From positions 40,479,670-40,543,669 of the forward strand of contig OZ025248.1 of the NCBI GenBank assembly GCA_964019135.1: a DNA stretch of 64,000 nt. The letters run 5' to 3'. How positions within the stretch are numbered: the stretch's first letter is position 1; each line of letters opens with the position of its first letter. Below are positions 35,481 to 64,000 of this stretch, piece after piece. Both the position numbers and the translations under genes were made by a program. Origin of the DNA: Arenicola marina (Eukaryota; Annelida; Polychaeta; Arenicolidae). The notes under the pieces are model-generated. The model made no database searches, had not been told where the DNA came from, and was given only the letters and a program-made list of their open reading frames with translations.

Positions 35481-36920
35481 TTTATTTGGAAACATTTTAC
35501 TGGCCAGTCTTTGTTTTAAGAGTCAAGGATCGAGAATATGCCATGGTTGCTATGATCCGTCCGTGCCTGGGTTGTTGTCACTGTTGTCGTCACTGAAGAA
35601 ATTATTGTTACCATTGCAATCAGTCGATTTATTCAGAATTTCACGTAACCATGTGTTCATATAAACTTGATGAATAAGGATTATTAACAATACGTAATGT
35701 ACATCACAACACATACTCATATAGATCAAGGGCGTATGCAGAAATTCTTGAAAGGTGGGGGGCCAATAACAAAAATTGGCGACCGACGTCCGAGGGGGGG
35801 GGGGGCACACCAATGGGATCATGCTACCAGGGGGCGGGGGCGGAACCAAATTGCGACCAAGGTGTCCATTACTTTTTGACGACCGGGGGGGGGGGTGGCG
35901 CAGAACTTGAAAAGGGGGCCACAGACATACTTTAGGGTGTGAAAGTGGGGGTAGGTGCCACCCCCCCCCTGGACAAAGAGCTTTGCCTGCCATCAATTCA
36001 GAGGGGCATGTTCTTCACTGATATCACCCAAGCAGTATGTGAAATCTGAAAACCCTGTAATGTTTCGTCGTTCGTTCTCAATTACATCACAGTTCATAGA
36101 TTCGTTGCCATTGCGACTTTATTTACATTCAAAAAGCAAATACTGCGTCATAAGTGCTACGCATTCAAAGAATATGTAAGGCTGTAATACTTAACAAATT
36201 AAAATGTCAGCTTCACACCGTTGCCTAAATTGGGGCCGGTTTTAAACTGGGTCATCTTAATGTAGTAAGTGGTTATGATAAAGTAAACGTCCATAATATA
36301 TATATATAAATTTATATTAATACATTCACCCGAAAATTAATGTCATGGTGTTGGTTGGGAAAGCGGGTGAACTATCGTACCTTCCACATTTGTTACTATG
36401 AACAGCATCCTGAAGATCACTGTGACTTTCCACAAAATACAGCACTGCAATAAAGTAAAAACAACCTATCAGATTCCGTAAGTGCACGTCATCGTCACCA
36501 GATGACGGTCCAAGTCGCACTGCCGCAATCTTCAGCTTCGACAGCCGCGACCAACACACTGGCCACCATGACCACCAACAACACTCGCAGCAGTGAAGGA
36601 CTCATTGTCGAGCTGAACTAAATCTTATGAAAGGAAAACGAAGTCGCTGTTAAATGCTAGAGCTGACATATGCACAGCAGCCCAGACCACGACTTCACGA
36701 AGACAGTGTGACATTTAGAACACAAAATTCAGCGTCAACGGCTTAGTGCTTAACTTTCTTAATGCACTATATACATCTCAGATATTTAATACGCGTAAAG
36801 CTTACCTTACAACTGGATAGCGTTTGAACTTCGGTTGTCCTGGGCGATGGATGCTATTTGTGACTGGCGACTGTTCCTTATATATCGGCGCTGCGCGTGC
36901 ATCACCAGTGTAATTTGCAT
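35481..36920 (-). pseudogene. Cysteine-rich peptide family, copy G1 (A type, decayed)
   Basis: This copy keeps every part of the family layout on the minus strand: octamer (36913-36920), TATA box (36876-36884), leader exon ending at 36806, coding exon from ATG 36605 with the family signal peptide MSPSLLRVLLVVMVASVLVA, an exon-3 segment from 36444, a 3' exon from 35592 and AATAAA (35486-35481). The mature part is much shorter and cysteine-poor compared with the whole copies, so I read it as broken, probably by one main event. Whether the remaining product is made is unknown. Upstream sequence (36.9-37.26 kb) is homologous to that of copy G3, so promoter and gene were duplicated together. Confidence 0.55.
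35725..35995. mobile_element. MITE-like G-rich element
   Basis: Begins 'caagggcgtatgcagaaatt' and contains several G runs, ending 'gacaaagagctttgcctgcc'. The layout resembles the 'ggggcggatctag' elements elsewhere in the window. Exact ends and family are uncertain. Confidence 0.35.
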
Positions 36921-37264
36921 ATCCAGATATTTGACTTGGGACGAGGATTGTAAAGCCAAAATCTCGTGACAAACTAATTGTTTACGACTTGGGCAGTTTA
37001 CGATCTCCCTGATTTCGTTACTGATATCCTGTTAGGGTAATCTATAGAGTGGGGCATCTGTCTTAGATACGCCTGCAGTGTCGTTAATTGAACGAAGAGC
37101 AGAATGTGGCAGAGATATGATATATAATTGACTACAATAGTGACATGATTTCCTTAATGTTCAGTTTGATTGTCTGAAGTTAATGGGCTGCGTCATCGAT
37201 CGCATGAATATTTCAGTTTAGTTATGTAACCTAAGCGCCACACATGATTTAGCACAGCGCGGGA

Positions 37265-37675
37265 GGTGGGGGGCATTTTTCTTTTTCAATTAGGGCCATT
37301 TAAAAAATACATTCGACTTTAATAGTCCTTATCATTCCCTTCTTTGAGGGGCAACTCCCCATTTGGATCAACCACTAGGATGCATCTACCAAGTGCCACT
37401 TCGGAAAACCCAAATTTTACAGGGGATGCTCAAGTTGCCAAGGTTGCCCCCGCCCCCACCTCCCGTAGATCCGCCCCTGACTGTCATGGTCTTCATATTA
37501 AGCATTCGCTGATACCAAGCATTAAGAACACATCCACCTGAATAATAATGCAGAGCACCCCCCGCCCCCCCCCCCCCTCCCAAGTTTTTCAGGAAGCTCC
37601 CCCCCGGTCGCATGTTTTCAGAGAGCACCCCCACCCCCTTAGCAAATTCCTAGATCCGCCTCTGATAAAGGTGTA
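37265..37675. mobile_element. MITE-like elements with 'tagatccgcccctg' ends
   Basis: 'cgtagatccgcccctga' (near 37465) and 'cctagatccgcctctgat' (near 37650) are right-end sequences of the hAT-like MITE seen whole at 51959-52203, here with C-rich interiors. Probably two nested or tandem copies. Confidence 0.45.
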
Positions 37676-37679
37676 TATT

Positions 37680-38090
37680 ATATAACACAAGTGTACAAGC
37701 AATATAGGTATCTATCTTTGAATAAATCTTACCAATACGATCCCATCTTACTTCCGGTTCCAGGGGTGACGGCAATTTCAATTGGGACATTTTAAGATCT
37801 CACATATTTTGTTAAAGCCGTCCATCTCTCATCACAGGAAAAATGTCTTGTTGGTTAGTGCAGACTTGCTTTCGTCCAACAATACCTCGATTTACCCTTT
37901 GGCCATGGCACCCAGTAGCCACTGTGGTTACCATATACAATGCAAGCAAGAAATAACGTCACAGCAATTCTTCGAAATGTGTGCAGTGGTGAAAAATGCA
38001 GATTCTGGCATGGTTACAGGGGGTCCCATAGTCGTCCTTCTGAAGCCGTCACTCTATACTTGTAGTTGTGGATTGCATCGCTAATACTGA
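37680..38090. repeat. Duplicated spacer R1 (pairs with 43680-44025)
   Basis: 'aaagccgtccatctctcatc' and 'acagcaattcttcgaaat' are matched at 43680-44025. The two spacers each lie between an A-type gene and the next B-type gene, marking the boundary of the duplicated A-B unit. Confidence 0.65.
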
Positions 38091-38333
38091 ACAGAGACGA
38101 CGACCGTCAACATGGTTACATAACATTGGCACATTTCGGATCCAAAGGCAAAAAATTACATTCAGTAAAAATGACTTGCGTTCAAGCTATTGCGTTCAAG
38201 CTATTCGCCACAAAGCGAGGTATTAGCGTCGCTAAGCAACACAAACATTGAGTAACATGCGTAGTTAACATGCATCTTCCTCTGCCCTAATCTACGGAGC
38301 CCCGCTAGGGACATTCAGAATTATTTTTTATCT

Positions 38334-38526
38334 CGTTCGCACGACATAGCATCTCGTTCGCACGACATAGTATCTCGTTCGCACGAGATAGCATCTCGTT
38401 CGCACGAGATAGCATCTTGTTCGCACGACATAGCATCTCGTTCGCACGACATAGTATCTCGTTCGCACGACATAGTATCTCGTTCGCACGACATAGTATC
38501 TCGTTCGCACGAGATAGTATCTCGTA
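38334..38526. repeat. 21-bp minisatellite, about 9 copies
   Basis: The unit is 'tctcgttcgcacgacatagta', with each unit holding two 'ctcgttcg'/'cgaga'-type near-inverted segments. Seven codons per unit keep frames open; not a gene. Confidence 0.85.
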
Positions 38527-38736
38527 ATACGGGTAATACGGGTCGTATTTTTATTTATTTACGTTTTTTAAACCGTTGAAAATTACGCAGCTACAAATCT
38601 GTACTGGTCCTTTGCGTCCTCCGTATACGACTATGCATCGCAGAGCAACACGTCCATGCCGGAATTTCCCCTCGAACGGTCAACTACGTCAGTTTATAAG
38701 AATGACAGGAACAATGGAGTGCAATTAGATGGACGA

Positions 38737-39947
38737 TTTATTACTTAACATGTTATTGTTCAGCCTTTGGACAAGGTCAAGTATCTAGACTACGCCATGG
38801 TTGCCATGATCCGTCCGTATCTGGGTTGTTGTCGCCGTTGTGGTCACTAGAGAAACAACTGTTAACATTGTAAAGAATCGTTTATTCAGGACACCACGAA
38901 ACCATGTGTTCATTTATTATATGAATAAGATATCATTAACAATGCGTTACACGCACGAGACGACAATGCCTGACAATGCCATATAATATCTATATACTTA
39001 TTTTGGATATATATTTATGAATAAAAACAACCATGACTTTGTCCCACACGGTCCAACCCTGTAATAAGACCATGACTTTGTCCCACACGGCCCAACACTG
39101 CAATAAGACCATGACTGTCCCATACGGTCTATAACACTAAAATTAACATTGGAAGGACAGCTTCAGACTCAATGCACATCATTGTCTTCCTCTTACGAAA
39201 TACTAGGATAATGCAACTAATACGTCATACATTAATTATTTGAAACCTGATATATATACCTAGTTTTTGATTATTACAGTTTAATATGCGAGATGTCTGG
39301 TGAGGTGGTCATGATGTTCCGAACTTCACATTATTGATGAAGATCTTCAGAGTTACCATTTCATAGGGGATCAATTTGGTTAATTAACATTCCATGACTA
39401 CGCAAAGCACTTATTATTATCACTTCTCATATTCGCATGCCTTGTCAGATGACGTCGTCTTCTGGCTGGGCACAGACACATGTAACAATGCAGGGCCAAG
39501 TTGCGCCAATACAGCCACCGACTGGTTTCCATGACCCCAAACAACACGCGCAGTAGTAAACAACGCATTGCCGAACTGATCTCGATCTCATGAAAGAAAA
39601 TGAAGCGTTCTTTGTCTTTCTTTCGGCTACAATACTTCTGTTACGTGGGACATTGTAGGCATTTACTCGTTACATGGCCCAAGCTTAATTTAAGATATCC
39701 TAAACTATATAAGCTTTACATAGATGTACTTATTCCCTCGCCTGACATGGCGTAATATCTAGCAGCATTATAATATTCGTTGCAACAGTTGTCAGTCGTG
39801 AGCAGTTGTCCGTTTATTGTTGAATAAAATAAATCGTTGTTAAATACTAAGGCTAACATTCCAAGGCTAATATCTGACACAACACCACAGACGACGACTT
39901 TACGAAGACCGTGTGGCAAATTGCACCACCATGTTATCAATTTGCAT
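38737..39947 (-). pseudogene. Cysteine-rich peptide family, copy G2 (B type, decayed)
   Basis: Minus-strand copy with an AATAAA (38742-38737), a 3' exon segment (near 38850), a two-unit exon-3 array (39034-39130), a signal-exon-like segment with ATG at 39568 and an octamer at 39940-39947. The leader and TATA region is not recognisable. It looks broken, with several breaks. B copies share the same disrupted state, so decay seems older than the duplication that made G2 and G4, or my exon model for B copies is wrong. Confidence 0.45.
39034..39130 (-). repeat. Exon-3 minisatellite, two units (G2)
   Basis: Minus-strand units of 39 bp each run from the splice acceptor 'cttattgcag' through the first 28 bases of exon 3. 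This is the shortest of three such arrays; longer ones lie at 45963-46258 and 62880-63285. Confidence 0.7.
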
Positions 39948-40690
39948 ATCATGATGTCTGCCTTGAGACGAGGATTGTAAAGCAAATATCCTCGTGACAA
40001 CCAAATCATATGGAAACTACACATTGTAGGATCTGACTCATTTCCCTATCTCTGAATATCAATATGAGCAGCACGTAAACAATTCTTATCCATGAATATA
40101 TAATTTAAAAAATAAGGGTTTTTGCTAGCGGGGATATATCTCCACTTCGTCGATCCTCCTGAAAATACAGACGCAGCCTACATCAACCTTACACAGGTGC
40201 ACACAATCATTTTGTTTCCAAGATTAGAACATGCACATGTTTGTGTGGTGCTGTTACGAGGTTATGTAACGTTGGAGAAGAGATGGATACAAGTAGATAC
40301 GCATGATGGTTTCATCCCGCTCTTACGGCCGCTTGGCTGGCACTGACCAATGTCATAATGTCATGTTTTGGATTCATTCAAGTCTTTATTACACATGTCA
40401 GGCACTTGGACAATAGACGACATCAGACTAACGTCAATCAATCGTCGATGTGAAGTGTAGCTATTCCTTTGCCGCCCTGCGGAGGTGTCGACGAATCGTT
40501 GTGCCATATAACGATCCCATGTCCTTCTTCAAAAAGAGAGACTGATTTGTAATGACCCGTGTCGTTGAATCGATGTGCTTCTTTGATTTGACAATGTAGC
40601 AATGACTTACATCATACCCACAAGTTAATACGAAGACTACGATAGTCTAGAAGAACAACAGAAAACAGTGGACTGCAGGGGGAAGGATAA

Positions 40691-40798
40691 TTTATTAGTC
40701 AACATTTTACTGGCCAGCATTTGTTGTTAAGGGTCAAAGAGAATATGTGGTCATGCTTATCCGGGTCCGTCCGTGTGAGGGTTGTCGTCACCGTGTCA
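40691..40798 (-). other. G3 3'UTR exon with AATAAA
   Basis: Acceptor 'cctttcgtttccacag' ends at 40799; the exon starts TGACACGGTGACGACAACCC and runs to the AATAAA at 40696-40691. Corresponding exons lie at 48455 (G5) and 35592 (G1). It follows the stop codon in exon 3, so it is untranslated. Confidence 0.55.
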
Positions 40799-41106
40799 CT
40801 GTGGAAACGAAAGGCAATATCGCCATCAGACGGTTCGTTTTGTTTCAAATAATACATTATCATATATTCGAGTATTATACCAAAAGAAAGTATGTTAAGA
40901 ACAGCAATTCAACAGGACGACCAGACGGCAATTCATAACTGCGTCATATAATAATAATTACATGGCATTAAGAAATTAAAGTATCTTACACAACATTAGA
41001 ATGACATTCTTTGCCGTTATCAGCTATGCAGCATGTCAAAATTGAAAACACCAGGTGGTTGGATAGGTAAGCGGGTGAACTATCGTACCTTTCACACCTG
41101 TTACTA

Positions 41107-41590
41107 TTAACAGGCTCCTTTATAAACCTTTGACTTGTATCCACACAATCCAGCACTGCAATAAAGTAAAAACAACCTTGGGTTTCAGATTCCGTTAGTG
41201 CCCGTCATCGTCACCGGGTCTTCCGCTGATGGAATACCAGAGTAACGCGAAATCAACTAATAAAAATATACATTAATTATACAGTATGTGATACACAGGC
41301 GCTCAGATCTGCTGACAGAACCCCCGGAGTAAATAAACAACGCCCCCCTCTCATGCAATTTTACGAATATGTTCATGGTTAACATGTCATTGTTGATGAA
41401 CATGTCATAGTTGATGAACATGTCATAGTTGATATGTACGCACGCCTTACCAGAGGTAATCGTGTGCTGGTTGGTTGCAGCTCCAGTTGAAAACACAGGA
41501 CAAAGTGCCGCAATCGACGACTTCGACAGCCGCGACCAACACACTGGCCACCATGACCACCAACAACACTCGCAGAAGTGAAGGACTCAT
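41107..41590 (-). CDS. Secreted six-cysteine peptide G3 (whole copy)
   Basis: Two coding exons on the minus strand, 41590-41451 and 41155-41107, are joined at CTCTG|GTAAGG and 'tttattgcag'|TGCTGG; the exon itself runs on to a donor at 41089. The 62-residue product has a strong signal peptide (MSPSLLRVLLVVMVASVLVA then AVE) and a mature part of about 38 residues. Its cysteines are spaced C-x4-C-x5-C-x8-C-x3-C-x10-C, and the last residue is Cys. The start has A at -3. The upstream leader exon ends at 41953; the TATA box is at 42029-42037. Likely exported and disulfide-bonded; the role is unknown. Defence peptide, venom or mucus peptide, or signalling peptide are all possible. It is not strongly cationic, so classical antimicrobial action is not implied. 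I do not recognise the family. Confidence 0.65.
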
Positions 41591-42028
41591 TGTCGAGCTG
41601 AACTAAATAGTTGAAATGAAAACGAAGCTCTCATTGTATTCCTTTTGCTATGCTTTTCTTACGTGGGACATTGTGCGTACTTAATCGATGGAATGAACTC
41701 GTTCGGTACGATGTTTACTCAAATGCATTTATTTTGTGCCATGACGTGGCGCTATATTGAGCAGCATTGTGTTATTCGTTATGCCACAGTCTTTCTTACA
41801 ATCGTCACAGTACTGAGTCTGGTGCAGTACTCTCTACTTTATTGGAAAGAAGAAATGGTTGTTAAACACGAACGCTGACATTTGGACAACACCACAATGA
41901 ACGACTCTTTAAAGACAATCATGAAGTTCAGCGTCAACTGTTTGATGCTTACCTTTCTCAGTAGCAGAAGGCGGGCATGGGAATTCGTTGTCCTGGGCGA
42001 TGGTTGTTGCTTGTGATTGGCGACTGTT

Positions 42029-42076
42029 CCTTATATTTCGGCCTGGCGCGTACACCACAGGTGCATCAATTTGCAT
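42029..42076 (-). promoter_or_regulatory. G3 core promoter: octamer and TATA box
   Basis: Minus strand: ATGCAAAT (42076-42069) lies about 31 bp upstream of AAATATAAGG (42038-42029). 'aacagtcgccaatcacaa' follows, which is conserved around the presumed start site in all A copies. The leader exon ends at GTAAGC (donor at 41952). Confidence 0.55.
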
Positions 42077-42615: not shown

Positions 42616-42619
42616 CTTC

Positions 42620-44556: not shown

Positions 44557-45668
44557 CATAACATTGGTACTTTCCGGTATTTTGTCAAAAACGTTGACAC
44601 AGTGAGCGGCACATTAGTCAGGGTCTAAAACGATTAACGTTTGTTGTTTATGCCCGTTGTGAGTACATGGGTGCTATATTAGATCCAAGACCATCCGGAG
44701 ACAATGATTGATCTGGATTAAGATTCCCCAGATTAATCCAGGTGTAACTGTCGGTAAATCCGACCATTTATTGCACTCGATATGTTAGGTTTGACCTGTT
44801 GCATATTACGATATTGCGAATGCCTGCCACTACGACAATAGACGATTTCAGAAAGTCGCCAACCAGTCATCTTGGCTAACTTAACGTCTGAGTCTACAGG
44901 TGATTCAGGTGCCCGGCTTCAAAGTTTCTTTCGTTAAGCGTGGGTTGGCTCCATAGTATTGATATTCACAGAACAAACAAAAAAGATACACTTTCCTTTC
45001 AGTAAAATGGAATCAAAAGATATATTTCACAAAATTGACAGTAGGCCTATCACAGTCCTGTCTGAAACGCTCCTCGTTAGGCATGTCTGGTTGCTAAGCA
45101 ACAAGCCGCAACAAGGCCATGTCACACGAGTGCGTCAGATTTCGTATTGAAAAGTGTATACCGGCACATATCATCACTTTGTAACAAATTTTAATTGGTA
45201 CACATCTCATAAAAAGTTATGTATCCTGTAAAGATATATTCCCGAGTCAGATTTGTAATATCTCCAGACAAAATAAGTTCCAGAAAGATCATTATTTGCG
45301 CACTGAAGAGCAGCAACAAATCGGGAATAGAAACGCTTTCCTGCTACGCACAGCGCAGTTAAATTCATTGCATTCGCCGGTTGGCATTTATATCAGTTGT
45401 TTTCTCGACTCATATGCCTCCACCTCATTCCCAAAATGGTATCCTTTGATAGTCATGAGATCTATCTATAAGATTCGTGTTTTTATCTATTGACGGTCTT
45501 GATGCCCTTGAAAATTACGCAGCTATAACTCCGTACTGGCCTTTTGCGTACTCCGTATACGACTATGCAGCGTAGAGCAACACGTAAACTGACGTAGTAG
45601 ACCGTTCGAGGGGAAATTCTGGCATGGACAAGAACAACAGAAAGAATGTAGTGCAATGAGATGGGTGA

Positions 45669-47209
45669 TTTATTACTTAACATGTTATTGTTCAGCCTTT
45701 GGACAAGGTCAAGTATCTAGACTACGCCATGGTTGCCATGATTCGTCCGTATCTGGGTTGTTGTCGCCGTTGTGGTCACCAGAGAAACAATTGTTAACAT
45801 TGTAAAGAATCGTTTATTCAGAACACCACGTAACCATGTGTTCATCTATTATATGAATATGACATTATTAGCAATGCGTTACACGGACGAGACGACAATG
45901 CATGACACTGCCATATAATATCTATATGCTTATGTGGGATATATATGTATAAATAAAAACCACCATGACTTTCCCCACACGGCCCAGCACTGCAATAAGA
46001 CCATGAATTTGTTCCACACGGTCCAGCACTGCAATAAGACCATGACTTTGTCCCACACGATCAAACCCTTTAATAAGACCATGACTTTGTCCGACACGGC
46101 CCAGCACTGCAATAAGACCATGACTTTGTCCCACACCACCCAGCACTGCAATGATACCATGATTTGTCCCACACGGTCCACCACTGCAATAAGACCATGA
46201 CTTTGTCCCACACGGTCAAGCACTGCAATGAGACCATGACTGATCCATACGGTCTATAACACTAAAAAGAACATTGGAAGGACAGCTTCATACGCCATCA
46301 ATGCACATCATTGTCTTCCTCTTACCAAATACTAGAATAATACAACAGCAACTAATACGTCATACATTAATTATTTGAAACCTGATATATATACCTAGTT
46401 TTTGATTATTACCGTTTAATATGCGAGATATCTGGTGAGGTGGCCATGATGTTCCGAACTTCACATTATTGATGAAGATCTTCAGAGTTACCATTTCATA
46501 GGTGATCAATTTGGTTAATTACCATTCCATGAGTACGCAAAGCACTTATTATTATCACTTCTCATATTCGCATGCCTTGTCAGATGACATCGTCTTCTGG
46601 CTGGGCACAGACACATGTAACAATGCAGGGCCAAGTTGCGCCACTACAGCAACCGACTGGTCTCCATGACCACAAACAACACGCGCAGTAGTAAACAACG
46701 CATTGCCGAACTGATCGCGATCTCATGAAAGGAAATGAAGCGTTCGTTGTCTTTCTTTCGGCTACAATACTTCTGTTACGTGGGACATTGTAGGCATTTA
46801 CTCGTTACATGGCCCATGCTTAATTTAGGATATCCTAAACTATATAAGCTTTACATAGATGTACTTATTTCCTCGCCTGACATGGCGTAATATCTAGCAG
46901 CATTATAATATTCGTTGCAACAGTTGTCAGTCGTGAGCCGTCGTCCGTTTATTGTTAAATAAAATAAATCGTTGGTAAATACTAAGGCTAATACTGGCAC
47001 AACACCACAGACGACGACTTTACGAAGACCGTGTGGCAAATTGCAACACGGAGTTCAGCGTCGACGGCTTGATGCTTCCCTAATTTCTCAGTAGCTGATG
47101 GCGAGCGTCGGAATTCCGTTGTCCTGGCGATGGTTATTGCTTGTGACTGGCGACTGCTTTATCTTTTGTCTTGGCGTGGTTCATATACCACCATGTTATC
47201 AATTTGCAT
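45669..47209 (-). pseudogene. Cysteine-rich peptide family, copy G4 (B type, decayed)
   Basis: Minus-strand parts: octamer 47209-47202, a degenerate TATA-like stretch, a leader-like segment near 47090-47150, a signal-exon-like segment with ATG at 46703, an exon-3 minisatellite of about seven units (46258-45963), a 3' exon segment near 45790 and AATAAA (45674-45669). It looks broken, with several breaks, and resembles G2 and G6 closely. Relative to A copies the signal region is diverged (begins MRCLLLRVLF). Confidence 0.45.
45963..46258 (-). repeat. Exon-3 minisatellite, about seven units (G4)
   Basis: 39-bp unit; on the minus strand it reads 'tcttattgcag' then 'tgctgggccgtgtgggacaa' and 'agtcatgg'. 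It holds the splice acceptor and the start of exon 3. Because 39 is 13 codons, the exon-3 phase is kept from unit to unit where units are full length. Confidence 0.8.
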
Positions 47210-47415
47210 ATCATGATGTCCGCCTTGAGACGAGGATTGTAAAGCAAAAATCCTCGTGACAACCAAATTATATGGAAACTACACATTGTAGGATCTGACT
47301 CATTTCTCTATCTCTGAATATGAATATAAGCAGCACGTAAACAATTCTTATCTATGAATATATAATTTAAAAAATAAAGGTTTTTGCTAGCGGGATATAT
47401 CTCCACTTCGTCGAT

Positions 47416-47811: not shown

Positions 47812-48347
47812 CCTCCTGAAAATACGGACGCAGCCTACATCAACCTTACACAGTTGCACACAATCACTTTGTTTCCAAGATTAGAACATGCAAATGTTTG
47901 TGTGGTGCTGTTACGAGGTTATGTAACGTGGGAGAAGAGACTGATAAAAGTAGATACGCATGATGGTTTCATCCGGCTCTTACGGCCGCTTGGCTGGCAC
48001 TGACGAATGTCATAATGTCATGTTATGGATTCATTCAAGTCTTTATTACACATGTCAGGCACTTGGACAATAGACGACATAAGGCTAACGTCAATCAATC
48101 GTCGATGTGAAGTGTAGCTATTCTTTTGCCGCCCTGGGGAGGTGTCGACGAATCGTTGTGCCGGATAATGATCCCATGTCCTTCTTCGAAAAGAGAGACT
48201 TATATGTAATGACTCGTGTCGTTGAATCGATGTGCTTCTTTGATTTGACAATGTAGCAATGACTTACATCATGCCCATACGTTAGTACGAAGACTACGAT
48301 AGTCTAGAAGAACAACAGAAAACAGTGGACTGCAGGGGGAAGGATAA

Positions 48348-48455
48348 TTTATTAGTCAACATTTTACTGGCCAGCATTTGTTGTTAAGGGTCAAAGAGAA
48401 TATGTGGTCATGCTTATCCGGGTCCGTCCGTGTGAGGGTTGTCGTCACCGTGTCA
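48348..48455 (-). other. G5 3'UTR exon with AATAAA
   Basis: Acceptor 'cctttcgtttccacag' ends at 48456; the exon runs from 48455 through AATAAA at 48353-48348. Nearly identical to the G3 3' exon. The open frame on the other strand here (MVMLIRVRPCEGC...) is a shadow shared by both copies. Confidence 0.55.
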
Positions 48456-48757
48456 CTGTGGAAACGAAAGGCAATATCGCCATCAGTCGTTTCGTTTTGT
48501 TTCAAATAATACATTATCATATATTCGAGTATTATCCCAAAAGAAAGTATATTAAGAACAGCAATTCAACAGGACGACCAGACGGCAATTCATAACTGCG
48601 TCATATAATAATAATTACATGGCATTAAGAATTTAAAGTACCTTACACAACATTAGAATGACATTCTTTGCCGTTATCAGCTATGCAGCATGTCAAAATT
48701 GAAAACACCAGGTGGTTGGATGGGTAAGCGGGTGAACTATCGTACCTTTCACATGTG

Positions 48758-49332
48758 TTACTGATTACAGCATCCTTGATAATGCTTAGACAGCGCTTTG
48801 GGACACGCACCACCACTGCAATAAAGCCAGAACAACCTTGGGTTTCAGATTCCGTTAGTGCACGTCATCGTCACCGGGTCCCTCGCTGATGGAATACCAG
48901 AGTAACGCAATCTCAACTAATAAAATTATACATTAATTATGCAATATGTGATATGTATACAGTTTCTAAAATTGCATCGATGGTCTTCTGGCATCAGATA
49001 TTATATGGATCAAAATCAAATGTGATTATTAATGTTAAATATGCAAGATCTCTGGTGAGGTGGCTGGGATTTGCGAAATTCTAATTGCATAGTCTATGCA
49101 ATTTAACGAATATGTTCAAGTTAACATGTCATTGTTGATGAACACGTCATAGTTGATGATCATGTCATAGTTGATATGAACGCACGCCTTACCAGAGGTT
49201 ATCGTGGTCTGGTTGGCCGCAGCTGCAGTCGAAATAACATTTGAAACTGCCGCAATCTTCAGCTTCGACAGCTGCGATCAACACACTGGCCACCATGACC
49301 ACCAACAACACTCGCAGAAGTGAAGGACTCAT
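48758..49332 (-). CDS. Secreted eight-cysteine peptide G5 (whole copy)
   Basis: Two coding exons, 49332-49193 and 48815-48758, are joined at CTCTG|GTAAGG and 'ctttattgcag'|TGGTGG; the exon continues to a donor at 48746. The product is 65 residues: signal peptide MSPSLLRVLLVVMVASVLIA then AVEA, with a good cleavage site before Glu-Asp-Cys. A 41-residue mature peptide follows with eight cysteines, C-x4-C-x3-C-x-C-x8-C-x3-C-x10-C-C, ending NQ. Exon lengths and the six framework cysteines match G3. Two cysteines are extra, and the tail motif SK-x-Y-x-G-x-C is shared. The mature part is slightly acidic. Leader exon ends at 49533; second exon starts at 49350; TATA at 49603-49611. Function unknown; secreted and disulfide-rich by prediction. 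Confidence 0.65.
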
Positions 49333-49602
49333 TGTCGAGCTGAACTAAATCTTATGAAAGGAAAACGAAGTCGCTGTTAAAGGCTAGAGCTGACATCTGC
49401 AAAACAGCCCAGACCACGACTTCACGAAGACAGTGTGACATTTAGAACACAAAATTCAGCGTCAACGGCTTAATGCTTAACTTTCTTAATGCACTATATA
49501 CATCTCAGATATTTAATAAGCGTAAAGCTTACCTTACAACTGGATAGCGTTCGAACTTCGGTTGTCCTGGGCGATGGATGCTGTTTGTGACCGGCGACTG
49601 TT

Positions 49603-49647
49603 CCTTATATATGGGCGCTGCGCGTGCATCACCAGTGTAATTTGCAT
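49603..49647 (-). promoter_or_regulatory. G5 core promoter: octamer and TATA box
   Basis: Minus strand ATGCAAAT (49647-49640), 28 bp spacer, then TATATAAGG (49611-49603) and 'aacagtcgccggtcacaaac'. The presumed transcription start is near 49575-49580; the leader exon ends at 'ccagttgtaag' with donor GTAAGC. Confidence 0.55.
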
Positions 49648-50569: not shown

Positions 50570-50880
50570 GTAGCTAGCGATAACACGAAATCAATGAAAT
50601 CGTAAAACGTATGGATTGCACATAATTGTGGTTATCGCGAGATTCTGGCATGGTGATCTTAGTCCAAAGGTAAAAAACAGGATCTGGATATGTAAATTGA
50701 TAAACTGGTGGTGCACGCGCCACGCCGAAATAAAGGGACCAGTTGCCAGTTCCAAACAACCAACATCGCCCAGCTAGGACAACCGAAAACGCTTTTCAGA
50801 TCAAGAACATATGCAGGATGCTGCTCATAGTAACACATGCGATAGGTACGATAATTCACCCGCTTTTCCAACCAACCAAA
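50570..50880 (+). pseudogene. Plus-strand relic of the peptide family
   Basis: In opposite orientation to the array, 50570-50810 resembles the A-type promoter and leader ('ctggatatgtaaattgataa', 'gccgaaataaaggga', 'atcgcccagctaggacaacc'). It passes directly into an exon-3-like end ('ggatgctgctcatagtaaca', 'aggtacgat'). A matching 3'-exon-like piece ('gtgacaacaaccctgatacg' with AATAAA) lies in the same orientation at 53550-53585. It is a broken remnant without a signal-peptide exon. Confidence 0.5.
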
Positions 50881-50889
50881 TGATATGCC

Positions 50890-51955
50890 GCATAGCTGAT
50901 AGCGGCGAATATTGTCATTCTAAATGCCACAATCAATATAAGATTACTCACGGAAATCCTTAATATGCGTCCTAGGTTTATATGTCATAATTGAAATACA
51001 CGTCTATATATTTATATTATCGTGCAACTTATGCTCTATTTATAGCGAGTGCGTTAGCACGAGCTCCATAGACTAACACCCGTATATTCTAGACATCACC
51101 ATATCACTTCGATGTCTCTGTTCTCTCTCGGTTTCAGTTGCCAGGAACTACTTGGATACGCTTTATTTTTGAAAGCAGTGACATAGCATTCGCCAGGTGG
51201 CGCACTATACGAATGCAGACAGACAACAAACCTATCCGGCTCTGCTCCAGCATACAGTTACTAATATATCTAAACGCGATTGTTCATTTGGTTTAAATCA
51301 TGACTAGCTTTGCAAGTTTCATCTTTGCATTATTTTCTCTGCGAATTCGCAATTATAAATTTAAATTGATTTTAAAAAGAAGTTGTCTAGCTTTGTCTAC
51401 AGATCTAGTGCCTTTTCAGTATTGGTATTATTATTGGTGGCCTACAATTTCACCCTCTGGAGTGTGCTAACAACTAAGGTGGACCCAGTGCATGTTTTTT
51501 TCGCCCACCCGCCCCCCCACTGGATCCGCGGTGGTCCGCCGGGTGTCTCTGGCGAGGGCCTTGCGTAGTAGGAAGTGGAAGCAGTGTGGCCCGGGCCGCG
51601 AGGGGGTCCGTGTTGTGGTCCTGGCTAAAGTCGCGCGTAGAAGGGAGGGGCCGCGGTTTTTTTTTCACCAGGGTCAACTAGTGTCACAACGTGCGCTGAT
51701 CACTTAATTACATGGTGTTAACTTATTTCACATCGTGCACAGCCCTAGCAAATCAGGGCCACCCCGCTGCCCCTCCCTACTTCGCATGCCCCGCGCCGGG
51801 GCCACCCCGCGCCGGGGCCACCCCGCGGACGCTGCAGACCCTCTCCACCACCGTGCAACCCTATCCCTGGTACATGCCTCTGACCACGCCCGTAAACGGA
51901 GCAAGGGTGAGAGCCATGCCGTTCACCAGACCTAAAATTAAAAATCGCGGACCGG
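50890..51955. other. Spacer, no gene seen
   Basis: A GC-rich stretch (51480-51960) with 'gccggggccaccccgc' duplicated at 51790-51825. Open frames here have no recognised domain. Confidence 0.3.
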
Positions 51956-51958
51956 TGA

Positions 51959-52203
51959 CAGGGGCGGATCTAGGAATTGGCCAAGGGGGGGGGGTTGCTC
52001 TCTGAAAACTTCCGACCGGGGGGGGAGCTTGGAGAACCCGACATTAACAGTTTATGTTCAGTTTCCCAAGGGGGGGGGGCTGCTCTCTGAAGATTTGGGA
52101 CTTTAACATGTATAGCAACATGTATGTTGTATGTTCTGGTTCCCCAGGTGGGGGGGGGGGGGCTGCAAGCCCCCTAACCCCCCCCCCCGTAGATCCGCCC
52201 CTG
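51959..52203. mobile_element. hAT-like MITE with 15-bp inverted ends
   Basis: Ends 'caggggcggatctag' and 'tagatccgcccctg' are inverted repeats. The interior has three copies of 'ggggctgctctctgaa'-like sequence with G runs. About 245 bp, no coding capacity. I could not confirm an 8-bp target duplication. Relatives occur at 37265-37675 and 42441-42615. Confidence 0.6.
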
Positions 52204-52339
52204 CTCAAGTTGAAGGTCCTAACAGAATAAATATGCACTGCCTACCAGTCAATATGTTCCACTATAGATTCCTGAAGCTTTTATGACTTTCGTCGGACAG
52301 TCATTTTTTTGGTCGATAGTGTATTTTCTTGTTCACGTC

Positions 52340-52930
52340 TCGCTTCGTTTTCAATACTCTGCCACTCGCCGGAAGTAAACAAACTTTGCGTAATCGCTCG
52401 GGTGCCAGGCGGCGTTTGTTGACATAGTATAAGTCAGTATAGCATAAGTCAATTTCTGTCCAGGTTTATTCTAAAGGCTATGAGTCCCATTTCACTAAAT
52501 ATGGCTATGAGAGGCATACGTAAAATATTTGGAGGCGATGAAGCGCGAGACTTTCGGAAAATACAAGGAAAAATCTGTCTTCAAAACACTCGAAAGCTCA
52601 AAATAGCGTTCTAACTTGAGCCCCGCACCCGCGCTTTCGCGAGTTCCCCAAAACAGCCAGTGACGTCACAGTTTCACGTGCCTACGCGGTAACAAAAATG
52701 GCGAGAGCAAGTGATCGACTTAACCATTCCGCTGTCAAAATGTGCAGTGCGTGGAGTAACAACACACATGGTACAAGTAAAATAAGACCAGTTGGATGTT
52801 TTCGAATCACTTTGGGATCACGAAAAAACGAAGTTTCTTTATTCTTTATAAGTTTTCTGTTTGAAGCATTGCACCAACGTTGTCACCGGGGAGAATCCGT
52901 GTTATGTCATAATGCCTCGTTATCGTAGGA
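52340..52930 (+). promoter_or_regulatory. CpG-rich stretch with CRE, and short open frame
   Basis: 52350-52700 is richer in CpG than its surroundings. It contains 'gccggaagtaaa' (ETS-like), 'cagtgacgtcacag' (full CRE TGACGTCA at about 52661) and 'aaaaatggcg' (YY1-like) over an ATG at 52698. The frame (76 residues) begins MARASDRLNHSAVKMCSAWS and has 'VGCFRI', faintly like the start of a THAP zinc finger, but key cysteines are missing. It may be a gene start, a transposon remnant or chance. Confidence 0.25.
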
Positions 52931-53099
52931 AATGCAAAAAAAAACTTAGTTTCTCAGCCGTGTTGTCCAGTCGTAACAAATATTCGTCATTGTGATGGCG
53001 CAAATGAATGAAAAATATGTCGTCTATCCGTTTTGTGCAGCTATCTTTCTTAAATACTCTTAATCATATCGCTAGGCCTTTCGCAATGGACCCACCCCT

Positions 53100-56000
53100 C
53101 GGCGCCTGGCTCTTGCGCAGGTAGTCTGGTTCTATGGCTCTGTCTTTGCTTAGCATATACGTCACGCCTACGTCACCGATCGGATACCAGTGTGCGCAGA
53201 GATTCTAACCTCGTTCCGAACACGCGCTTCGTTTGTTTGTCCCCAATATAAGTAAACCGGAAGTCTTGGCGAACGAGACTGTATAGCCCTATAGCTGAAT
53301 TAATATATATACATTAATTCTTAATTCAGTTATATCGATAAAATGCGAGCGTCTATATACGCTCACATTGTAGGTAGCACCTACTATACATATATTGATT
53401 ATATGGCGCTGTCATGAATTGTCGTCAGGTTGTCTTAAATATACTGTATTTTGATATAATACTAAAATATATGACTATGCATTATGTTTAACAGAAAGAA
53501 ACGACTGATGGCAATACTGTCTCTCCATATTGTTTTCATGGTGGCACGGTGACAACAACCCTGATACGGACGGATACGAATAAATGTGACAACGTATTAT
53601 CCATCCTGGAAAACCAATTCCGCAATCGAAGATACATCAGACTGCATAAACGGGGATCCAACATCGTCAGATACTTACAGCAGAGTTATATATTTACACA
53701 ATTGTAATGAGAGGGAATTACGTTGGGAACTGGATGTATAACGGTACGTAAGCGTTGCAATGTCTCACAAAACCTGTTGGCCATTTGCAGTGAAGGCGTG
53801 GTGTATTTGCATGCAACCCCACAAGGATGAGGAGTGGAACACAATAATATAATTAATATTTAATTATATATGGAATAATATAATTTATATCCGAAAAGTT
53901 GTTTATAGTTTTATATATATATAGTTAAAGCTAGGGATTTATGCCCAACATCAGATTGATAGCATTTAAATAGTACCAAAAAAATTGGAAAATATGTAAC
54001 ACATCTATATTTCTGAACTTGAACAAGGTGCGACTTTAGCAAATCATTAAAATCACTCCATGCTACAATCAGAGAATTTTGACCTTTACAATCCAGTCCA
54101 AATGTGATATATGCAACTGTCTACGTAAATGACATTGGAGAATGCTCTTCTATATGTTGTCACAAACCATAATAAAGGTAAATAAGATGACGCAACAACC
54201 ATGATGTGATACTTTCCTGGTACCTCTACGTTTAGCCAAAGTGTTAAATCAGTTATGTGTCGCCTGTCTGTTTTTGCCATTATGCCACGTGTCGCCATGT
54301 CCCCGTTCTTGCTCTACGATTCATACCATATTCTCCGATCGTCGCAAGACACCTTTCGGGGTATTTAGATAGCGTCTTCGCGTGCAGGAAAACTATTTAG
54401 TACTTGGGGTTATGCCATTAGTTTCACTCCTATGACATCACTATGATGTAACAATGATGCCATATCGAGTACATTTACCGCTCGATTCGATTCAATCCGT
54501 TTACGCAAGCAGTATTTTTTGCCAAGCTTTCAATGGCGCCTTGGGGCCCATATGTGGTTTGGCAAAACTGATTTCTGTCGTACCCATATCGTCGATGGTT
54601 TCTTGTTATTCCTAATACCATTTATCAATAAAGTTGCATACATTTTTGCATGCATATTATAAAGTCCGAGTAAAGTTCAGTTCCATATTTCGCAATTTTC
54701 CCTAGGACAACTCCCCGTGGGACAACTCCACCCCTCCCCCCCCCCGCCCCCCCCGGACAACTGATACTGATTCTAGTAAAACATGGATGCATTTAAGGTG
54801 AGCGCGGTAAAATATTAGTAACTGACGCGATATTAACGTCCAGCTAATGCAGACAAAAATAATTTTAAGACCTGAATCCTAATATATTGTGCCATCAATA
54901 TACAGTAACCGTTAATTTCTTTCGGGTGGACACTTGACCATATTTGCTATTGGTCCATTGGTTCAAAAATCAACAATTAGTCAGCGGCGATCATTCGACG
55001 TTTCGCAGCGTATATGTGTAGTGTAGATCCTCGCTTGAGAAGCTGGTGCGGTACCTGCGCACTGTGAGTATGAGACGGGCAGGCATACTGATCATTTGGG
55101 AAACATTTCCGTTACAAAACATCGCAGGGTAAAATGTTACTCCATATACTATAGATTCAACACACGAATACATTGCCGGTTACCTCCTTTCTCAAAAATA
55201 CTAATCCATTTGCCTATTTAGATAAACCCTGAACGTGTCATTATCAACAGTTAAATGGGAACATTTGCGTTACACTACGGCTTTTATTGTTCAGAATTTA
55301 TGCTAAAGTTTGTTCATGCTTAGTTACGAGAAAGCACCACGCCGACCATCTCATGAGCCATATATTTTGCACAACCACCCAGATTGCTTCAACATTTACT
55401 CTTCTAGGCCTACTGGTAAATTATGTACATTTTACGAATCCATTTACCCAGAAGTTGGCCTTTAATTCCCTAGAAGAGGAATGATTACGCTATACACGCC
55501 AATAAGAGACACGTTGCGGAAGCCTTAATTTTGCTCAAGACTTTCCATGAGGTTCTAGTTCGCCCCCCGCCCCCCCGCCCCCCCGACACGATAAAAACTG
55601 TCACAACTTCCTCGCCATTAACACTAAATCTAGAAAAAAACCAGATCGATGACGTCATCAACATGTGGTGGGTATTCCATTAAAGTGAGGAGTAGCGCTG
55701 AACAAACATAATGTATCACTAAGTAGAATGTCGAGGTCACCTACTTCTCGGTATCAACCCCGGGCTTCACACCCCCTCCCTGATCACACAATGGCTTTGG
55801 AGCCCTACTAACAAGCCTGACACAGTCATCTGGATTATAATCCACAGCTATTAGGAAGGCTGCCCAATTATTAATGGTACTTCATCGGGCGCACTGACGC
55901 CAATGATATGACCTCCGAAACAAATAAACCCAGAGACAGCGATGACAGGAGCACACTATTGTCAAAGAGCTCCGTCTTATAGTGACGGTGCTTTCCCGTT

Positions 56001-57515: not shown

Positions 57516-57607
57516 GGTCATACTAGAGCGGTTCAGGCAAATTGGTAAACAACAACTATTCAGTGTCTTTTACAATGGATGTCCACTCTGTTACTTCCTG
57601 ATTTTGT

Positions 57608-59382
57608 AACAGAGCGGACAGTAAACGTATGGACAGTAACCGAGTGGACAGTAACCGAGTGGACAGTAACCGAGTGAACAGTAACCGGGTGGATAGTAAC
57701 CGAGTGGACAGTAACCGGGTGGACATTAACCGGGTGGACAGTAACCGAGTGGACAGTAACCGAGTGGACAGTAACCGAGTGAAAAGTAACCGAGTGGACA
57801 GTAACCGAGTGAAGAGTAACCGAGTGGACAGTAACCGGGTGGATAGTAACCGAGTGGACAGTAACTAGGTGGACATTAACCGGGTGGACAGTAACCGAGT
57901 GGACAGTAACCGGGTGGACAGTAACCAAGTGAACAGTAACCGAGTGGACAATAACCGAGTGGACAGTAACCGAGTGAACAGTAACCGGGTGGACAGTAAC
58001 CGGGTGGACATTAACCGGGTGGACAGTAACCGAGTGGACAGTAACCGAGTGGACAGTAACCGGGTGGACATTAACCGGGTGGACAGTAACCGAGTGGACA
58101 GTAACCAAGTGGACAGTAACCGAGTGAACAGTAACCGAGTAGACAATAACCGAGTGGACTTTAACCGAGTGGACAGTAACCGAGTGAACAGTAACCGAGT
58201 GGACAGTAACCGAGTGGACAGTAACCGAGTGGACAGTAACCGGGTGGACAATAACCGAGTGGACAGTAACCGAGTGGACAGTAACCGAGTGAACAGTAAC
58301 CGGGTGGACAGTAACCGGGTGGACAGTAACCGGGTGGACAGTAACCGAGTGGACAGTAACCGAGTGAACAGTAACTGAGTGGACAGTAACCGAGTGGACA
58401 GTAACCGGGTGGACAGTAACCGAGTGGACAGTAACCGGGTGGACAGTAACCGGGTGGACAGTAACCGGGTGGACAGTAACCGAGTGGACAGTAACCGAGT
58501 GGACAGCAACCGAGTGCACAGTAACCGGGTGGACAGTAACCGGGTGGACAGTAACCGAGTCGACAGTAACCGAGTGGACAGTAACCGAGTGGACAGTAAC
58601 CGAGTGAACAGTAACCGGGTGGACAGTAACCGGGTGGACATTAACCGGGTGGACAGTAACCGAGTGGACAGTAACCGAGTGGACAGTAACCGGGTGGACA
58701 TTAACCGGGTGGACAGTAACCGAGTGGACAGTAACCAAGTGGACAGTAACCGAGTGAACAGTAACCGAGTGGACAATAACCGAGTGGACTTTAACCGAGT
58801 GGACAGTAACTGAGTGAACAGTAACCGAGTGGACAGTAACCGAGTGGACAGTAACCGAGTGGACAGTAACCGGGTGGACAATAACCGAGTGGACAGTAAC
58901 CGAGTGGACAGTAACCGAGTGAACAGTAACCGGGTGGACAGTAACCGGGTGGACAGTAACCGGGTGGACAGTAACCGAGTGGACAGTAACCGAGTGAACA
59001 GTAACCGAGTGGACAGTAACCGAGTGGACAGTAACCGGGTGGACAGTAACCGAGTGGACAGTAACCGGGTGGACAGTAACCGGGTGGACAGTGACCGGGT
59101 GGACAGTAACCGAGTGGACAGTAACCGAGTGGACAGTAACCGGGTGGACAGTAACCGAGTGGACAGTAACCGAGTGGACAGTAACCGGGTGGACAGTAAC
59201 CGAGTGGACAGTAACCGGGTGGACAGTAACCGGGTGGACAGTAACCGGGTGGACAGTAACCGAGTGAACAGTAACCGAGTGGACAGTAACCGAGTGGACA
59301 GCAACCGAGTGCACAGTAACCGGGTGGACAGTAACCGGGTGGACAGTAACCGAGTCGACAGTAACCGAGTCGACATATTTTG
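57608..59382. repeat. 15-bp satellite, about 117 copies
   Basis: The unit is 'cagtaaccgagtgga'. Variants (gggt, aaca, catt, aata) act as markers and show block duplications: 'ggactttaacc' at 58156 and 58786 (630 bp, 42 units), 'ggacagcaaccgagtgcac' at 58501 and 59296 (795 bp, 53 units). Five codons per unit keep long frames open on both strands (up to 584 codons); these are not genes. Confidence 0.95.
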
Positions 59383-59469
59383 CCCAAAAGCCAAGTTTAC
59401 CTTCTGTGAATGATTAGAATGTTATGGGGCTTAACTTCGTTATTTTCCTCCAACTATGAATTCTATATA

Positions 59470-59700
59470 TAATGATATAATCCATGGTAACAGAGTGGAC
59501 TTAACGTGCATCACTGTCAACTCTGTTACCATGATCGTATTTTGCTTTATCAAACATATCAGATAACCCAAGATATATATATACATATATAAAATATATA
59601 ATGATATAATCCATGGTAACAGAGTGGACTTAACACATCACTGTCAACTCTGCTACCATGATCGTATTTTGCTTTATCAAACATATCTGGGCTGCCATTT
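59470..59700. repeat. Paired hairpin repeats containing the satellite seed
   Basis: 'catggtaacagagt' (59483-59496) pairs perfectly with 'actctgttaccatg' (59520-59533). The whole segment is duplicated at about 59600-59695 with one arm mismatch. The arm contains 'ggtaacagagtggac', one base from the 15-bp satellite unit. Further relatives lie at 57583-57612 and 60063. Confidence 0.7.
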
Positions 59701-60429: not shown

Positions 60430-60900
60430 CTTCAACGATTAGTCACCCTCCTGTAGACTTGCAGAATCCCCCCAGCAGGCCACACTCGCCTCACCCCCTT
60501 CCTCCATCCATATTTTCCTGATACCGGGACTCCCCCCCCCCTGCCCTACCGCCCCACCCCCGTCCACCTCTCTCTGGTACCCGCCCCTACTCTTGCCCCC
60601 TGTTAGTCATACGTGATGAAAGCGATGGGAAGAGGTGGGGGCGAAGGAGTTATGGGAAGGGCGGGGCGCAGGACATATGAGAAGGGCTGTCGAGAGGGGC
60701 GGTGAGCAGTGGCAGGGGAAGGGGTGGAGGGGGGTCTCTTGGGAAGAGTTGAGGTAATGGTGCTGTTACTAGTAATAGAGCGGGGGAGGCGTGGGGTGAG
60801 CCGGGGAAATGAGCGGGCTAGGTGTAGTATGGGGATTGGGGTGGGGGGGCTGGTGCGTAGGGGTGGTTAGATAGGGTGAACGGGGGAGCAGTGAGTAGGT
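60430..60900. repeat. C-rich then G-rich low-complexity tract
   Basis: C-rich 60470-60600 followed by G-rich 60620-60870. Compositional; lies at the 3' side of the minus-strand LINE. Confidence 0.5.
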
Positions 60901-62200
60901 GTTTCACCCCTAATAAAGCTCTACAGAACCTCAATTGTACATGTTCTTTATCATGTGAAACTTCACACCCCCATATTTCTGAGCCATAAAGCAGAATTGG
61001 TGTAACCATTTTATCAAACAAATAAAACGCAATATTGCTAGATAAAACGCCACGTTTGTACTGTAACTTAGTCAATAACAATAATGCTTTGCCAGCCTGA
61101 CCTGCCAGGGTCTTTTTCGCTAATGACCAGAATATTTTCGGTGTTAGAAATATTCCCAAATACTTATAGGCAGGTACAACTTTAATCAATTTTCCATCGA
61201 AAAACCACTTTTCATTCTGTTTTAGAGTTCCACCCCTGCGAAAAACCATGACCTTTGTTTTTTCTAGATTAACGGACATGCGCCATTTATTACAAAAGGA
61301 TTCTAGGACATTTATCATTATCTGTAACCTTCCTATTGTGTCAGCACATTGGACCATATCATCAGCAAATAATAATATCATAATATTCTGAGCCTCTTCA
61401 TTTACAAATATACTTTGACACCGTACTGGGGACATGGCATCTACTAGCTCTCCGATATAAAGTACAAACAAAAGCGGACTGAGAATACACCCCTGCCGGG
61501 TCCCAGTGAAACAGGAAAACATATCTGTTAAACCCTCCTTTGTATTGACGCATGATTTGAGTTTACTGTACATATCTCGAAAAAACATAAATAATATTAC
61601 CATGCAGGTTTTTTTTAAGTAGGCTATACCTTAGCATATCATGGGGTATGGTGTCGAAAGACTTGGAAAGTCTATAAACAGGCAGTAAAAACGACCCTTT
61701 CTCTTGCATATGTATTTTTGTCCAAGTGACTGTAGTGTAAAGATTTGATCTATTGTTGAATATCCTTTTCAATATCCAGCCTGGGCTTCATGATGCAAGT
61801 TGTTTGTTTGGGCCCATTGCACAAGTCTGCCGTGTATAATTTGTGTAAATACCTTCCCCATAGTACAGAGTAAAGATATGCCCCTATAACTATTTGCATG
61901 TAATCGGATGTCACATTTATGTATATGTATAGGCGCCAAGACTGCTTCACACCATTTCTGTGGATAGTTCCCCGATTTGAGTATGCTATTAAACAAGACC
62001 GTCAGTGCAGGTGTAACTTGATGAGCCGTACTCTTTAGCATCTCGTTAATGATGCCATCAATGCCTGGTGCTTTTCTCTCCTGCAGTGATACAATGCAAC
62101 TCAAAACTTTATCCGTAGACATACATCGATTCACCTCTTTTGGTTCATTTCTTATATATTTACATATATTTATATATATTTATATATATTTAGTTACATT
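60850..62200 (-). mobile_element. 5'-truncated non-LTR retrotransposon (LINE)
   Basis: Minus-strand RT domain in three frames. 62134-61769 has RKAPGIDGIINEML and SYRGISLL (RT fingers). 61772-61563 has SFDTIPHDMLRYSLL. 61603-60818 has GTRQGCILSPLLFVLYI, the catalytic box FADD, NLEKTKVMVF, the YLG motif and a thumb region with LLYGSEIWG. Frame changes near 61770 and 61600 separate these blocks, so it is inactive. The endonuclease part is absent; truncation is at about 62200, where sequence homologous to 45260 begins. Clade probably I/Jockey/CR1-like, not assigned. Confidence 0.85.
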
Positions 62201-62604
62201 GTTAATATCAAAAATAAGTTCCAGAAAGATCATTATTTGTGCACTGAACAACATTAACAACCCGGGAATATGAACGCTTTCCTGCTAGGCACAGCGCAGT
62301 GAAATTCATTGCAGTCGCCGGTTGGCATTTATATAAGTTGTTTTCTCATACGTCTCCGCCTCATTCCTGAATTGGTATCCTTTGATAGTGAAGATATTTA
62401 TCTATAGGGATCGTGTTTTTAGTTATTTACGGTTTTTAAACCGTTGAAAATTACGCAGCTATAAATCCGTACTGGCCTTTTGCGTGCTCCGTATACGACT
62501 ATGCAGCGTAGAACAACACGTCAATGCCAGAATTTCCCCTCGAACGGTCTACTACGTCAGTTTACAAGAACGACAGGAACAATGGAGTGGAATGAGATGA
62601 GCGA

Positions 62605-64000
62605 TTTATTAATTAACATGGTATTGTTCAGCCTTTGGACAAGGTCAAGTATCTAGACTACGCCATGGTTGCCATGATCCGTCCGTATCTGGGTTGTTGC
62701 CGCCGTTGTGGTCACTAGAGAAACAATTGTTAACATTAACACCACGTAACCATGTTTTCATCTGTTATATGAATATGACATTATTAGCAATGCGTTACAC
62801 GGACGAGACGACAATGCATGACAATGCCATATAATATCTATATACTTATGTGGGATTTATATTTATAAATAAAAGCCACCATGACTTTGTCCCACACGGC
62901 CCAGCACTGCAATAAGTTCATGACTCTCCCACACCGTCCAGCACTGCAAGAAGACCATGACTTTGTCCCACACGGTCCAACCTGTAATACCACCATGACT
63001 TTGTCCCATACGGCCCAGCACTGCAATAAGATCATGGTATTGTCCCACACCACCCAGCACTGCAATAATACCATGATTTGTCCCACACGGTCCAACCCTG
63101 TAATAAGACCATGACTTTGTCCGACACGGCCCAGCACTGCAATAAGATCATGACTTAGTCCCACACCACCCAGCACTGCAATGATACCATGATTCGTCCC
63201 ACACGGTCCACCACTGCAATAAGACCATGACTATGTCCCACACGGTCCAGCACTGCAATAAGACCATGACTGACCCATACGGTCTATAACACTAACAAGA
63301 ACATTGGAAGGACAGCTGCATACGCCATCAATGCACATCATTGTCTTCCTCTTACGAAATACTAGAATAATGCAACAGCAACTAATACGGTCATACATTA
63401 ATTATTTAAAACCGGATAAACATACATAGTTTCCAATTTTGCATCAAAGGTACGGTTTGCACCAGGTATTCTATGAATCACGATCACTTGGGATTATTGT
63501 AGTTTAATATACGAGATATCTGTTGAGGTGAGCATGATTTTCGGAACTTCACATTATTGATGAAGATCTTCAGAGTTACCATTTCATAGGTGATCAATTT
63601 GGTTAATTAACATTCCATGACTACGCAAAGCACTTATTATTATCACTTCTCATATTCGCAGGCCTTGTCAGATGACGTCGTCTTCTGGCTTGGCACAGAC
63701 ACATGTAACAATGCAGGGCCAAGTGGCGCCACTACAGCAACCGACTGGTCTCCATGACCACAAACAACACGCGCAGTAGTAAACAACGCATTGCCGAACT
63801 GATCGCGATCTCATGAAAGAAAATAAAGCGTTCTTTGTCTTTCTTTCGGCTACAATACTTCTGTTACGTGGGACATTGTAGGCATTTACTCGTTACATGG
63901 CCCATGCTTAATTTAAGATATCCTAAACTATATAAGCTTTACATAGATGTACTTATTCCCTTGCATGACATGGCGTAATATCTAGCAGCATTATAATATT
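62605..64000 (-). pseudogene. Cysteine-rich peptide family, copy G6 (B type, decayed, partial in window)
   Basis: Minus-strand AATAAA (62610-62605), 3' exon segment near 62720, exon-3 minisatellite of about ten units (63285-62880) and signal-exon-like segment with ATG at 63791. Promoter and leader would lie beyond the window. It looks broken in the same manner as G2 and G4. Confidence 0.45.
62880..63285 (-). repeat. Exon-3 minisatellite, about ten units (G6)
   Basis: The longest of the three acceptor-plus-exon arrays. Units of 38-39 bp each carry a 'ttattgcag'-like acceptor, a few altered to 'ttacag'. Unit order partly matches the G4 array, so the arrays share ancestry and then changed length. 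Confidence 0.8.

Follow-up and report, generated by a model that had tools for sequence, protein, structure and literature searches.

Does the repeated part of a 64,000-nucleotide stretch of DNA from the annelid Arenicola marina (C1:40479670-40543669, in the following the window) represent an array of genes for small secreted peptides, and if so, how did its copies come to differ? The array spans positions 35481-64000 of the window with the minus-strand copies G1 to G6, and a seventh minus-strand copy, G7, lies outside the window, 17,104 bases beyond G5. An earlier note on this DNA had described six like copies that form an expanding array of genes for tiny cysteine-rich secreted peptides. What stands of this description are three intact-looking genes out of the seven minus-strand copies (G3, G5 and G7), whereas G1, G2, G4 and G6, that is four of the six copies in the window, are broken: G1 is truncated, and the B-type copies G2, G4 and G6 lack splice donors and a mature frame. 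Overall, the observation is partly confirmed, and its interpretation appears to be partly supported. We consider it rather likely that the intact copies represent an annelid family of secreted disulfide-rich peptides, which evolves by birth and death in this tandem array.

Anatomy of the intact genes

G3 and G5 were found exactly as they had been predicted, with the junctions 41451|41155 and 49193|48815 and peptides of 62 and 65 amino acids, respectively. The proposed anatomy holds as well for both genes. Both carry the octamer ATGCAAAT, accompanied in G5 by the TATA box TATATAA and in G3 by the TATA-like AATATAAG, which a strict TATA pattern does not match. The leader exon is non-coding and has the donor GTAAGC. 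This is followed by a signal-peptide exon with 140 coding bases (46 codons plus two bases) and a short second coding exon with 49 (G3) or 58 (G5) coding bases in identical phase, the codon being split after its second base. The stop codon, within exon 3, precedes the third intron by less than 20 bases, so that this intron lies 3' of the stop, and AATAAA is found in exon 4. The transcription starts of G3 (~42005) and G5 (~49580) were inferred, the former from the TATA spacing. With coding exons of about 46 codons at most, genes of this sort escape scans for open reading frames, as the earlier note had pointed out.

G7 matches G5 base for base in the coding part of exon 2 and deviates from it in exon 3. 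All three genes have open frames in a common phase, near-identical signal peptides, and an octamer plus a TATA-like box. The putative signal peptide, as read by eye from the translation, has an arginine at position 7 and the hydrophobic core LLVVMVASVLVAA. An intact gene would encode a precursor of 62-65 amino acids, in which a conserved putative signal peptide (about 21-24 residues) precedes a mature peptide of about 38-41 residues, whose eight cysteines would presumably form four disulfides; in G3 there are six cysteines.

Divergence between the copies

The best sign of coding is the place where the copies differ, the changes being clustered in the mature coding part. Between G3 and G5, 2 of 81 bases differ in the leader and signal-peptide part of exon 2, as compared to 18 of 74 in the mature part of the same exon and 18 of 49 in the coding part of exon 3, and further downstream 7 of 285 in intron 3 and none of 113 in exon 4. 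Pooled, this amounts to 36/123 differences in the mature coding sequence versus 38/732 in the flanks (Fisher 8e-14). The flank consists of six segments chosen by us, and 22 of its differences are concentrated in the final 150 bases of intron 2. Two further stretches were measured but left out of the pooled flank, namely the promoter plus exon 1 (41/149, 27.5%) and 400 bases downstream (19/400).

Between G5 and G7, exon 3 differs at 6 of 57 bases versus 4 of 562 in its neighbours (p 7e-5), and the adjoining introns are free of differences just upstream (0/50) and just downstream (0/40). All six changes are nonsynonymous, none is synonymous, and every cysteine is kept (8/8). The contrast is weaker between G1 and the other copies, with 15-24/64 differences in exon 3, 3-5/45 upstream and 8-9/40 downstream. 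Six cysteine columns are invariant across the G3, G5 and G7 peptides. It seems that the cysteine frame is largely kept and the loops between the cysteines are replaced.

If 36 random substitutions are placed in the 132 mature bases of G5, 21% of the sequences stay open, 6% keep at least six of the eight cysteines, and 1.8% do both (20,000 runs with substitutions only and without insertions or deletions). The open frames of G3 and G5 are thus more than expected by chance. In a more specific form, which we regard as a real but tentative possibility, the array would represent an undescribed annelid family with an eight-cysteine frame of its own and diversifying selection on the short last coding exon, this same exon together with its acceptor having been multiplied into a 13-codon-long repeat in the dead copies.

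Some results weigh against secreted peptides shaped by selection for change. The gene models are known here from genomic sequence alone. When six changes are placed at random in exon 3, 21% of the runs remain free of a stop and retain every cysteine, so that the pattern between G5 and G7 alone is weak on that score, and between G3 and G5 the cysteine columns are kept no better than other residues (6/8 versus 16/33, p 0.25, not significant). The mature net charges of +1 (G3), -2 (G5) and -5 (G7), counted from residue 25, are unlike the clear net positive charge of a cationic antimicrobial peptide, a class which is not favoured here. Moreover, the proportion of synonymous differences (pS) in the mature part of G3 and G5 is high (0.24) and, like that of nonsynonymous differences (pN, 0.30), higher by far than the difference in the pooled flank (5%). 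Selection acting on the protein would increase pN but not pS, so that by itself it leaves the high pS unaccounted for; exon stretches brought in from other copies would account for it. Finally, the divergence of the G3 promoter from that of G5 indicates that the locus is plainly a mosaic.

High pS and the diverged G3 promoter would both be expected if the genes are real and the excess in the mature exons results mainly from gene conversion or shuffling among old paralogues and not from selection for change. The 17 kb repeat along the array points in the same direction, since its identity varies like a mosaic from ~86% to 100% with a step near 48.88 kb. We nevertheless regard this explanation as rather unlikely, because the diverged stretches coincide with the mature coding sequence, the six changes between G5 and G7 are bordered by unchanged intron on both sides, and the 264 kb scanned with G3 and G5 revealed no other copy that carries the exon 3 of G7. 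Part of the divergence pattern may still originate from conversion, or from old exon stretches that were kept while the rest was homogenised, and selection plus conversion is the likelier mix for the mature divergence.

Cysteine frame and possible relatives

The mature peptides of G5 and G7 share the frame C-x4-C-x3-C-x-C-x8-C-x3-C-x10-CC (gaps 4-3-1-8-3-10-0), and the six cysteines of G3 are spaced by gaps of 4-5-8-3-10. On alignment, C36 and C62 are both lost in G3, and their joint absence suggests a bonded pair.

A search of 5.8 billion predicted proteins gave no candidate with G5, and two candidates with an alignment of the three sequences, none of them at an expectation value (E) up to 10. 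Profile searches with the predicted peptides matched no family: in Pfam, G3 and G5 had no hit at E up to 10, and NCBIfam, a bacterial and archaeal library, gave noise alone. Solved structures yielded nothing above noise (best E 0.11). The family can be called undescribed insofar as no relative appeared in protein, Pfam, NCBIfam or structure searches, all of which are weak for short, diverged animal peptides; the word-based protein search needs shared five-residue words and would miss diverged relatives. To our knowledge, annelid secreted peptides are thinly sampled.

It is also conceivable, but unlikely, that the genes belong to a known family (toxin-like, defensin-like, EGF-like, a protease-inhibitor scaffold or a mating pheromone) that has diverged too far for sequence searches. 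The difficulty of short diverged peptides for these searches speaks for it, and so does the stretch C36-x-C38-x8-C47 of G5 and G7, which equals the tail spacing C-x-C-x8-C of EGF domains. However, apart from the negative Pfam and structure searches, the cysteine patterns tried, which were those of CS-alpha-beta, inhibitor cystine knot, ShK and full EGF, do not fit. Unlike EGF domains, the array peptides have too few upstream cysteines, the tail spacing is absent in G3, and the full six-cysteine order is present in none. The CS-alpha-beta defensin pattern (CxxxC and a later CxC pair) is unmatched in G3, G5 and G7. The order C-C-CC-C-C of the inhibitor cystine knot is not found, as CC is the last pair in the array peptides, and neither is the CxxxCxxC tail of ShK-like peptides.

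Conotoxin gene superfamilies of cone snails combine a conserved signal peptide, a hypervariable cysteine-framed mature part, and birth and death of copies. The array genes likewise show a conserved signal peptide next to a hypervariable mature part, as the counts for G3 and G5 illustrate, and probably birth and death of copies; their cysteine framework is complete between G5 and G7, and six of its eight columns are kept between G3 and G5. This likeness concerns the mode of evolution alone. In contrast to conotoxin genes, they have no separate propeptide exon, an intron within the mature peptide, the cysteine order C-C-C-C-C-C-CC and an annelid host. Furthermore, conotoxins come from the venom gland, whereas the array peptides are known here just from their genes. 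The antimicrobial peptide genes of bivalves (mytilin, myticin, defensin) possess four exons with a non-coding first one and an intron inside the mature peptide, a layout that is shared by the array genes. Unlike the bivalve peptides, the mature array peptides are near neutral to acidic and match no Pfam family.

Two of the five amino acid changes between G5 and G7 take away a positive charge. Charge changes of this kind would fit a secreted effector with a remodelled surface, and they fit a cationic lytic peptide poorly. The peptides might be released from secretory cells and act on a target that is itself changing, for instance a microbe, a predator or a prey animal, with a mate's receptor as a less likely candidate; defence, venom-like and mating use would look alike in these data. 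Expression, cleavage and disulfides of the peptides, as well as an effector role in defence, in mucus or of a venom-like kind, are what we infer from the genes. If expressed, G3, G5 and G7 together with their dead relatives would form a compact natural series for the diversification of a disulfide-rich peptide family, and the array would supply new small scaffolds of annelid origin. The more specific reading, with diversifying selection on the last coding exon, would if true mean that a secreted arsenal is being born and dying within one locus.

Decayed copies and neighbouring features

In G1, the mature part of exon 2 is mostly deleted and exon 3 is interrupted by a stop, and this dead exon 3 retains C-x3-C and a later CC. 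The copies G2, G4 and G6 retain the octamer and AATAAA. G4 and G6 have lost both the TATA box and donor 1, and CTG|ACAAGG stands in place of donor 2 in G2, G4 and G6 alike. Each of the three also has a shifted mature frame: frame 0 meets a TAG in exon 2 of G4 and G6, and in G2 it is open across the stretch printed, yet it is not the mature frame. In another frame, all three resemble G5 in a C-x3-C-x-C spacing, and the next residues are QP (G2, G4) or KP (G6). With donors lost, the mature frame shifted and exon 3 replaced by a repeat, the B copies were rejected as working genes.

This tandem repeat of 39 bases fills the position of exon 3 in the B copies, and its last units are partial (Table 1). 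The unit aligns to the acceptor and exon 3 start of G3 with a score of 42 (maximum of 20 in 500 letter shuffles, the number used throughout) and to G1 with 33 (maximum 22), and the scores for G5 (29, maximum 26) and G7 (25, maximum 23) are marginal. Position and alignment scores suggest that the unit derives from exon 3 plus its acceptor. Since certain units are 37 or 38 bases long, the reading frame is not maintained and we take the repeat for a relic. The plus-strand inverted remnant recurs 17.1 kb further on.

Four broken minus-strand copies out of seven and a broken inverted remnant would also be in agreement with the whole array being a dead or dying relic, with G3, G5 and G7 as merely its youngest copies and none of them expressed. 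We find this improbable, since open frames and canonical splice sites persist despite ~29% mature divergence, the octamer and the TATA-like box are retained in all three copies, and random substitution rarely retained frame and cysteines in the simulation described above.

A search with G3 and G5 across the 264 kb surrounding the array detected no further copies at the thresholds used. Within the 867 Mb genome, the G5 peptide (E up to 0.001) gave at least five matches and the G5 promoter-to-start DNA at least seven, both being lower bounds, and every one of them lies in the array, which speaks against a mobile repeat and disfavours a mobile element. A duplication of one haplotype in the assembly is unlikely, as the array contains no assembly gaps and the 17 kb repeat diverges by ~14% in places, and a structural RNA finds no backing in the window, with no Rfam family at gathering score and no transfer RNA (tRNA; bacterial settings).

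Table 1. Window coordinates of the array features (UTR, untranslated region)
Feature	Positions	Strand	Details
G1	35481..36920	-	decayed; promoter, leader and signal peptide retained (ATG 36605)
G2 (B type)	38683..39999	-	decayed; TATA/leader segment absent; 2 units of 39-base repeat
G3 exon 4	40675..40798	-	3' UTR; AATAAA 40696-40691; end approximate
G3 exon 3	41089..41155	-	coding 41155-41107 including stop; post-stop donor AAAG|GTACG
G3 exon 2	41451..41602	-	12 nt leader; ATG 41590; coding 41590-41451, signal peptide and first half of mature peptide; donor CTCTG|GTAAGG
G3 promoter and leader	41953..42076	-	octamer 42076-42069; TATA-like box 42037-42030; exon 1 ~42005-41953, then GTAAGC
G4 (B type)	45630..47269	-	decayed; 7 units of 39-base repeat
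G5 exon 4	48330..48455	-	3' UTR; AATAAA 48353-48348; end approximate
G5 exon 3	48746..48815	-	coding 48815-48758 including stop
G5 exon 2	49193..49344	-	ATG 49332; coding 49332-49193
G5 promoter and leader	49533..49647	-	octamer 49647-49640; TATATAA 49611-49605; exon 1 ~49580-49533
Inverted remnant	50597..53601	+	promoter-like part and exon-3/3' UTR pieces, without signal-peptide exon
G6 (B type)	62551..64000	-	decayed, extends past window end; 10 units of 39-base repeat

Other features were noted in and near the window. At 57606-59375 there is a 15-base repeat with 118 copies that is open in several frames, and its counterpart 17 kb further on appears much shorter. A 37-base repeat (~72 copies, 94% matches) occupies 3459-6106. 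Two minus-strand pieces of a reverse transcriptase, probably from a long interspersed nuclear element, are located at 60818-61603, which matches RVT_1 above the cut-off, and at 61769-62134, which matches it weakly.

On the plus strand, 26610-28005 contains an exon of a neuropeptide-like precursor, the start of which was read by eye, in which the unit WGSRVM(S/N)GFNQA(D/G) occurs eight times in tandem between dibasic sites; no Pfam match exceeds its cut-off (best Catalase-rel, 20.6 vs 30.1 bits), and NCBIfam gives no family. An open frame with a BIR domain (inhibitor of apoptosis) and two matched stretches is present on the minus strand ~18 kb ahead of the window (L017:1355-2320). A plus-strand open frame of 219 residues with paired-cysteine repeats runs from L007:9826-10000 to L008:1-482; for the 160 residues that lie in L008, Pfam yields no family at E up to 1.

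The mitochondrial contig C762 (15,942 bases) contains ten long frames (code 5) that match the Pfam families of nad4, nad1, nad3, a nad2/nad4/nad5-type subunit, cox1, cox2, cox3, cob, atp6 and nad5. Large-subunit ribosomal RNA (rRNA) lies between nad4 and nad1, with tRNA-Val ahead of it. The order on one strand, with nad2, nad4L and nad6 named by position and by eye, is nad4L-nad4-rRNA-nad1-nad3-nad2-cox1-cox2-cox3-nad6-cob-atp6-nad5, which we take to be the usual annelid order.

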